DNA of 64,000 nt from the NCBI RefSeq assembly GCF_016863435.1, contig NZ_BOOW01000030.1, forward strand, positions 62,001-126,000. Reading direction: 5' to 3'. Shown here piece after piece: positions 43,491 through 45,021 of the stretch (positions are counted from its first letter, which is position 1; every line of letters begins with the position of its first letter). Position numbers and translations under genes: made by a program. The notes beneath the pieces were generated by a model. The model worked only from the letters and a program-made list of their open reading frames with translations, was not told where the DNA came from and did not search any database. The DNA comes from Sinosporangium siamense. Lineage in GTDB: Bacteria; Actinomycetota; Actinomycetes; Streptosporangiales; Streptosporangiaceae.

Positions 43491-43647
43491 ACCGCATATC
43501 GTCCCATAAAGCTCGCAAAATCTCGGGAATCCACTCCCCCTGTCGAACCGGCGGCACGGTCCGGCGGATTCCCGCTCCCAAGGCCGACCTGCCCACCCGG
43601 CCCCATCGGTATTAAACTGTGATGTGGCACCGCGATAAGCGGCCGCC

Positions 43648-43742
43648 CCGGACGAGGAGTGAGCGCCGTACCCGGACGAGTCAGACGACGCTCTAGGGCT
43701 GGCTGGTGTGGTGCCGTCTCGCCTTAGTTCTCGGGCTTTTTT
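43648..43742 (+). promoter_or_regulatory. Guanidine-III (ykkC-III) riboswitch with expression platform
   Basis: The aptamer (43648-43693) follows the ykkC-III consensus. CCGGACGAGG opens it, its CCGG (43648-43651) pairs with CCGG at 43672-43675, and GCGCCGTACCCGG lies in the centre. The second helix pairs GAGCGcCGT (43661-43669) with ACGaCGCTC (43685-43693), in line with compensatory change from the Thermobifida fusca version as I recall it. Downstream, CTCGGGC and a six-T run (43737-43742) can form a terminator by pairing with CCCG(gac)GAG at 43671-43680. Guanidine binding would hold that strand and allow read-through. The gene 80 bases on is a GdmH-like hydrolase. Confidence 0.82.
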
Positions 43743-43824
43743 ATACGCTTGGTTCTCAGGCTTTCTGACGAAATCGCATCGGCTCCCGGTCAGACGCACA
43801 TCTCTACGGGAGAGGAAGCCGACG

Positions 43825-44964
43825 ATGACCGAACCGTTCGCCCAGGGAGCCTGGGCGCAGCGCGCCGAGGCCGAGCTACCCGAGCGGCGGCACAGGGAGG
43901 AGATCGAGCGAGCGCTCGATCTCGGTCTCCCCGCCGCAGAGTCGATCAAAGACCGCACCATCCCGACGTTCTCCCGCGGCGAGTTGCCGCATTTCGCGGG
44001 TGAGCGGGGCACTTTCCTCAAAGCACCGTTCATGGAGAACGTTCACGATGTCGGGGACGCCGAGGTCGCCATCTTCGGCGCCCCGCTCGACGCCGGCACG
44101 ACCTACCGTCCAGGCACCAGGTTCGGCCCACAGGGCATCCGGCGTGCCACCAACCTGTTCGGCACCTACTCGTTCGAGCTCGGGGTCGATCTGCGCGAGC
44201 AGCTCAACCTTGTGGACATCGGCGATGTGGTGACCATCCCCGCCAACATCGAGAAATCGTTCGACCAGATCAGCAGGGCCATCAGCCATGTGGCGGCGGC
44301 GGGCGCGATGCCGGTGGTGCTCGGCGGCGATCACTCCATCGGCTACCCGACCATTCGCGGCCTGGCCCCGCACATCGATGGAAACATCGGCATCATCCAC
44401 TTCGACCGTCATGTCGACACGCAGGAAACCGACCTGGACGAGCGGATGCACACCACGCCGTGGTTCCACGCGACCAACATCAAAAACGCCCCCGCCGTCA
44501 ACCTGGTGCAGATCGGCATCGGCGGCTGGCAGTCGCCGCGCGCCGGGGTGAAGGTGGGGCGAGGCCGCGGGACGACCATCATGACCGTGGGCGACGTCGA
44601 GCGCGTCGGCATCGAGAAGATCGCTGAGACCGCGCTTGAGATCGCGTGGAAGGACGCCAAGGCGGTCTACCTGTCGTTCGACATCGACGTCATCGACGCC
44701 GGGTTCGTGCCGGGGACCGGCTGGCCGGAGCCGGGCGGCCTGCTGCCCCGGGAGGCACTGGGCCTGATCCGGCTGGTGTCCGAGCCGGGGCTGGCCGGCA
44801 TCGAGGTCGTGGAGTGTTCGCCTCCCTACGACTGGGCCGAGCAGTCGTCGCTGATCAGCGCCAGGGTGGTGCTGGACTCGCTGGCCACCATGATCAAGGC
44901 CGGCAAGCTGGGCAAACGCCCGGCTGCCGGGAAACGTCAGGCTTGGGGACCGTACCCCGCCTAA
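43825..44964 (+). CDS. Agmatinase-family enzyme, predicted guanidine hydrolase (GdmH-like)
   Basis: A 379-residue ureohydrolase, longer than usual agmatinases (about 310) and near GdmH size (about 390). Metal ligands are in 'GGDHSIGYPTIRG', 'HFDRHVDTQETDLDERMHTTPWFHATN' and 'SFDIDVIDAGFVPGTGWPEPGG'. The 'FDRHVD' (Arg instead of Ala) and 'ERMHTTPWF' segments are those of the guanidine-hydrolase branch rather than SpeB. The expected reaction is guanidine to urea and ammonia, with nickel in characterised homologues. The riboswitch in front supports guanidine as the inducer. ATG 43825 has GGGAGAGGAAG upstream. Confidence 0.85.
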   Translation: MTEPFAQGAWAQRAEAELPERRHREEIERALDLGLPAAESIKDRTIPTFSRGELPHFAGERGTFLKAPFMENVHDVGDAEVAIFGAPLDAGTTYRPGTRFGPQGIRRATNLFGTYSFELGVDLREQLNLVDIGDVVTIPANIEKSFDQISRAISHVAAAGAMPVVLGGDHSIGYPTIRGLAPHIDGNIGIIHFDRHVDTQETDLDERMHTTPWFHATNIKNAPAVNLVQIGIGGWQSPRAGVKVGRGRGTTIMTVGDVERVGIEKIAETALEIAWKDAKAVYLSFDIDVIDAGFVPGTGWPEPGGLLPREALGLIRLVSEPGLAGIEVVECSPPYDWAEQSSLISARVVLDSLATMIKAGKLGKRPAAGKRQAWGPYPA

Positions 44965-44985: not shown

Positions 44986-45021
44986 GGAAGCCGCCGGGTG
45001 CGCAGCCGCCCGGCGGCTTCC
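44986..45021. terminator. Strong hairpin terminator after the guanidine hydrolase
   Basis: A perfect 13-bp stem (GGAAGCCGCCGGG / CCCGGCGGCTTCC) with a 10-base loop begins 22 bases after the stop. There is no T tract, as often in actinomycetes. Confidence 0.8.

Follow-up and report, generated by a model that had tools for sequence, protein, structure and literature searches.

A guanidine-III riboswitch aptamer in the leader of a gene for a putative GdmH-type guanidine hydrolase in Sinosporangium siamense

We propose that a gene of S. siamense, transcribed by itself, has a guanidine-III riboswitch in its leader and that guanidinium, in all likelihood, turns on the GdmH-type guanidine hydrolase which it encodes. 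The analysis covered a window of 64,000 nucleotides (the whole stretch of DNA examined) together with the genome and its relatives, and establishes by computation what the RNA and the enzyme are, that the two are adjacent and that related genomes have the pairing too; guanidine binding and the ON direction are what the homologues lead us to expect. Binding of guanidinium would stabilise an H-type pseudoknot and so switch enzyme production on, and the enzyme would hydrolyse guanidine to urea and ammonium. Elsewhere in the genome, a further guanidine-III copy would turn on an SMR exporter, in which case one signal would drive both breakdown and export. The features of the locus, all on the + strand, are as follows.

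43613-43618, +: -10-like hexamer TAAACT, recognised by motif only; the transcript would start at about 43625, at the 5' boundary of the structured leader
43624-43694, +: guanidine-III aptamer in its full Rfam extent (RF01763 and model R1)
43630-43642, +: 5' hairpin CCGC-GAUAA-GCGG ahead of the core (Rfam alignment, constrained fold)
43648-43651, +: 5' strand CCGG of the pseudoknot helix (P1 of the crystal structure, PMC5696562), with its partner at 43672-43675
43652-43655, +: ACGA with the ligand-contact bases C6 (43653) and G7 (43654), mapped onto the Thermobifida fusca structure (PMC5696562)
43661-43693, +: P2 helix, 43661-43669 with 43685-43693, enclosing the CCGG at 43672-43675 (fold, covariation)
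43682, +: CAGACG in place of AAGACG, roughly A32 of the crystal numbering (two alignments)
43696-43715, +: predicted switching strand, a hypothesis from single-sequence folding and a shuffle test
43721-43742, +: weak 4-bp hairpin followed by T6, a terminator candidate (fold)
43783-43812, +: hairpin CUCCCG/CGGGAG, predicted to sequester the Shine-Dalgarno region (free-state fold)
43808-43816, +: Shine-Dalgarno-like GGGAGAGGA, ending 8 nt 5' of the ATG (sequence)
43825-44964, +: gdmH-like gene of 379 aa, with its ATG at 43825 (PDB matches, tree, residues)
44986-45021, +: strong terminator-like hairpin 3' of the gdmH-like gene (fold)

The aptamer and its changed core base

A preliminary description of this DNA had read a 46-base segment as a ykkC-III aptamer and had named the Rfam covariance model as a check. 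RF01763 (guanidine-III, ykkC-III) matches 43624-43694 on the + strand over model positions 1-67 of 67 with 33.1 bits, which is the best match in the 281 bases searched with permissive filters and is significant there (E = 1.7e-5) as well as over the 8.86-Mb genome (E = 1.3e-4), but falls 2.9 bits below the gathering score of 36; with gathering thresholds applied, Rfam reported nothing in the window. An independent covariance model, R1, built from 21 copies of related genomes with this aptamer left out, gave 46.2 bits on 43644-43694 (E = 2e-7 for 0.9 Mb), and the core pattern was found once in the window. The whole genome holds two RF01763 matches, this aptamer and a 53.4-bit copy on another contig. 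The reading as ykkC-III is borne out by both models, and the RNA is a guanidine-III riboswitch aptamer.

The structure by which guanidine-III is recognised, the H-type pseudoknot 43648-43651/43672-43675 together with P2, is present. The P2 strands GAGCGCCGU and ACGACGCUC form eight of nine pairs, the exception being a C.A mismatch that several sister copies also have. Among 33 distinct copies the 5' strand CCGG of the pseudoknot is invariant, and P2 covaries, as had been claimed from its changed bases: three pairs are changed on both sides, 99.2% of cells are paired, and the pairing far exceeds that of slid versions of the helix. The ligand-contact positions, which were mapped by hand in the numbering of the T. 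fusca crystal structure, include a third base, G17, at 43668; C6, G7, G17 and the CCGG/CCGG pseudoknot are all kept. The aptamer thus shares with that of T. fusca the pseudoknot, ACGA, CGUACCCGG, P2 and the three contact bases, but differs from it in one changed base of AAGACG and in a P2 extended to nine positions. AAGACG is invariant in the other aligned copies, whereas here one A at about 43682 is either replaced by C or deleted, the alignment being ambiguous, and this change is probably the cause of the score below the Rfam cut-off. As judged from the sequence, the ligand pocket appears to be retained despite the one changed, otherwise invariant core base, which provides a ready test of what guanidine-III tolerates.

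Such a change, together with the score below the cut-off and the lack of a riboswitch in the leaders of Streptosporangium canum and S. minutum, the closest relatives, might also indicate that the aptamer is a decaying remnant from an ancestor under guanidine-III control, its core damaged, its leader lengthened and its response to guanidine small or absent, the enzyme being constitutive or otherwise controlled. The ligand-contact bases, the pseudoknot and eight of the nine P2 pairs are nevertheless intact, and the fact that the core is kept while the surrounding leader DNA is unconserved argues for function; we regard a remnant as unlikely.

The long leader and its possible switching

The aptamer end is separated from the ribosome-binding site by 114 nt, compared with 16 nt in T. 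fusca, whose guanidine-III riboswitch is believed to work at the level of translation. In the fold computed without constraints (-81.1 kcal/mol) bases 43626-43633 pair with 43708-43715 and 43640-43648 with 43696-43705, the Shine-Dalgarno region being closed with a mean unpaired probability of 0.08. When the aptamer helices are forced (-74.2 kcal/mol, a value in which pseudoknot and ligand are not counted), 43701-43712 pair with 43773-43784 and the accessibility of the Shine-Dalgarno region is 0.45, a rise of 0.37 that was matched by none of 300 dinucleotide-shuffled linkers (mean -0.07, sd 0.16) in a test designed after the fold had been seen and applied to one sequence only. These folds can be read as an exchange of 43626-43648 with 43696-43715 against 43696-43712 with 43773-43787: without ligand, 43626-43633 and 43640-43648 would pair with 43696-43715 and the sequestering hairpin would cover the Shine-Dalgarno sequence, while with ligand the freed strand would pair with 43773-43787 and the Shine-Dalgarno sequence would open. 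Modelling of this kind points tentatively to translation as the regulated step. The aptamer ordinarily adjoins the ribosome-binding site; that a site 114 nt away is controlled by such a long-range helix exchange, with the ligand pocket kept despite the changed core base, is a possibility that we put forward with some doubt. The same test gave no consistent Shine-Dalgarno opening in slow-growing mycobacteria, the leaders of which also have a long linker, of a sequence different from that here; in Mycolicibacterium the ribosome-binding site lies directly 3' of the aptamer. A conserved switching linker was rejected, as the family genomes match the leader DNA over the aptamer only and the slow-growing mycobacteria were inconsistent.

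Termination of transcription at the T-run 43737-43742 would be another way for the switch to work. The T-run itself, noted in the preliminary description as part of a terminator candidate, is real, and in the predicted free state a GC-rich 4-bp stem (43721-43724/43733-43736) stands directly 5' of UUUUUU. At about -5 kcal/mol, however, this stem is very weak beside the hairpin 44986-45021, the terminator scan is blank there on the + strand, the stem and the aptamer are not mutually exclusive, and the guanidine-III switches described in the literature are believed to affect translation and the stability of the mRNA. We did not retain the T-run as an intrinsic terminator in view of the 4-bp stem and the blank scan; a weak one may be present, and a switch based on it is improbable.

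The enzyme and its genomic setting

The next gene is, as had been described, of the agmatinase type and contains the FDRHVD and ERMHTTPWF segments of guanidine hydrolases; generic family annotation places it in the arginase family (PF00491). Among solved structures its product is closest in sequence to the guanidinase of Nitrospira inopinata (PDB 9fek; 531 bits, 64% identity), followed by GdmH/Sll1077 of Synechocystis (PDB 7esr; 495 bits, 61% identity) and, far behind these two, by proclavaminate amidinohydrolase (166 bits). Residues T93, H209, W300 and E330 are kept; in the N. inopinata enzyme the guanidinase-defining residues are T105, H222, W313 and also E344 (PMC11410670), the PDB chain index being offset by 2 relative to the native numbering. 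The dinuclear metal ligands of the ureohydrolase fold, H170, D194, H196, D198, D286 and D288, are likewise kept. A maximum-likelihood tree places the protein in one clade with 9fek and 7esr (support 98/97) and apart from E. coli SpeB, guanidinobutyrase (GbuA), guanidinopropionase (GpuA) and proclavaminate amidinohydrolase (PAH); SpeB sits on a long branch, and the guanidinase split is obtained nonetheless. The nearest relative in the tree is the protein of S. canum (89% identical). The tree, which the preliminary description had proposed as a check, and the four defining residues support its assignment of the gene product as a GdmH-type guanidinase, for which dependence on nickel may be expected from the homologues.

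An agmatinase, or another hydrolase of guanidino compounds for which guanidine would be merely the signal, might be suspected from the generic arginase-family annotation and from the weak binding of agmatine by guanidine-III (PMC5696562). The specificity positions hold Trp300 and Thr93 where the compared agmatinase, guanidinobutyrase and proclavaminate enzymes have Thr and Ser, the scores for the two NCBIfam agmatinase models remain below their cut-offs (TIGR01230, 163.9 against 174.3 bits; NF002564, 202 against 302 bits), and the protein falls within the guanidinase clade; with cut-offs, residues and tree all contrary, we rejected the agmatinase identity and consider this whole class of explanation very improbable. 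A chance resemblance of the RNA, which the score under the gathering value might suggest, can be dismissed for practical purposes given the genome-wide E-value, the count of two matches in the genome, the position directly before a guanidinase gene and the E-value of the independent model.

The hairpin at 44986-45021 suggests that the gene is probably transcribed on its own. No nickel chaperone or guanidine importer is encoded among the inspected neighbours (chorismate mutase, HIT protein, ECF sigma factor), in agreement with the earlier remark that a nickel chaperone gene is not adjacent; this is not anomalous, because the N. inopinata guanidinase also lacks one nearby (PMC11410670). HypA is encoded elsewhere in the genome, in a hydrogenase-maturation cluster, and HypD and a hydrogenase maturation protease are also present in the genome (L191), whereas HypB was not found genome-wide, which implies that nickel would be loaded through HypA alone or by another route. 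Neither urease alpha nor beta was found in the genome, which is estimated to be 99% complete, with assembly gaps as a caveat, nor was a full-length urea carboxylase, so the pathway probably stops at urea. It would then amount to detoxification plus the gain of one nitrogen, as one ammonium, with urea left over. The second guanidine-III copy, a canonical one (L001, 53.4 bits), precedes an SMR exporter gene (PF00893), and no guanidine-I copy was detected elsewhere in the genome; the genome-wide checks were single family searches.

The two characterised guanidinases differ from this system in their control. Synechocystis GdmH (PMC8390497; PDB 7esr, 7oi1) has the same specificity residues and is also under guanidine-riboswitch control, but the riboswitch is guanidine-I and the operon includes HypA/HypB-like accessory proteins and an ABC importer, whereas here guanidine-III precedes a single gene. 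The N. inopinata enzyme (PMC11410670; PDB 9fek), again with the same residues, shares its guanidine-I control with a permease, and the organism has urease.

Separately, the GdmH proteins of L033, L116, L117, L119, L124 and L128 have His-rich N-terminal extensions (e.g. HSHGPGGHSHSDAF), which could possibly bind nickel within the enzyme itself and stand in for a chaperone.

Recurrence of the pairing and what it means

The preliminary description implied that a guanidine-III riboswitch before such a gene is rare, which does not hold: ykkC-III upstream of 'speB' genes, in 5' UTRs, was reported by Weinberg et al. in 2010 (PMC2864571), and the pairing is widespread in mycobacteria. The earlier report concerned the same kind of pairing with an agmatinase/arginase-family gene, but it predates knowledge of the ligand and of the true enzyme activity, whereas the gene here can be named a guanidinase. 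Wang et al. (2021) pointed out that 'agmatinases' are under the control of guanidine riboswitches and demonstrated that the protein from Synechocystis acts as a guanidinase (PMC8390497), and a 2025 review associates guanidine-III with efflux proteins and metabolic enzymes (PMC12186494). Because of the earlier reports on ykkC-III with 'speB' and on GdmH, the pairing is already known in kind.

Guanidine-III occurs in 27 of 60 relatives, and an SMR gene adjoins 24 of the 30 matching guanidine-III loci, including the second copy of this genome. When the 80 nearest named GdmH loci were inspected, 42 carried guanidine-III, in the same orientation, in their leaders, nearly all of them mycobacterial (Mycobacterium, Mycolicibacterium); in such loci, e.g. 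L098 and L062, the orthologous GdmH is about 80-84% identical. Within the same family one further locus (L144) has guanidine-III before GdmH, at 61.8 bits. In orthologues of 66-70% identity from the same family, Micromonosporaceae and Thermomonosporaceae, the riboswitch is guanidine-I (L034-L039, L145, L146, L148, L135, L137, L139). The nearest GdmH relatives, 88-89% identical, are those in which the riboswitch went undetected: neither Rfam nor the model found a guanidine riboswitch in the Streptosporangium leaders L061, L127, L141 and L142. Most simply, guanidine-III control would be an ancient trait of this GdmH clade that has eroded slightly here and been lost in Streptosporangium.

Several other leaders attracted attention in the course of this comparison. 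In two Streptosporangium loci (L061:4960-5003, L127:4960-5003) a conserved GC-rich element, GCCCCCCAGAG..TAGCGCGGCTA..AGGGGGACA, encloses the GdmH ribosome-binding site. GdmH leaders of Actinomycetospora, Streptomyces and Cellulomonas (L095:4901-4965, L104:4901-4965, L115:4764-4830, L119:1397-1464) have the pseudoknot CCGG/CCGG shortened to CCG/CGG, one base pair less through both strands, the remainder of the core being kept; their Rfam scores are 34-41.5, two of them below the cut-off, and a search for this short-pseudoknot variant in 396 genomes of the phylum returned scattered weak matches only. The GdmH leaders L107:4896-4956, L090:3215-3247 and L086:4908-4956 score very low in the model (16-20 bits); their guanidine-III-like cores are expanded or divergent, but some conserved parts remain. 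Guanidine-I is found on the opposite strand near GdmH at L090:2958-3075, L107:4652-4757, L095:7777-7885 and L104:7767-7867, and the presence of guanidine-I and a guanidine-III-like element at one locus suggests that at some loci the two classes serve one pathway. At L040 / L025 (G039:C13:53485-54566) GdmH is spread over two reading frames, through a frameshift or an assembly error, close to and convergent with a 41.5-bit guanidine-III copy.

The locus is a good further example of a pairing that is not new and is common in mycobacteria. What it adds is that guanidine sensing is tied to guanidine breakdown in a soil actinomycete apparently without urease, by which detoxification would be separated from full use of the nitrogen. 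Experiments would be most worthwhile on the changed core base and on the putative long-distance expression platform. Orthologous guanidinases have swapped riboswitch class, with guanidine-I in one clade, guanidine-III in another and none in the nearest genus, which makes the GdmH leaders a natural series for riboswitch gain, replacement and loss.
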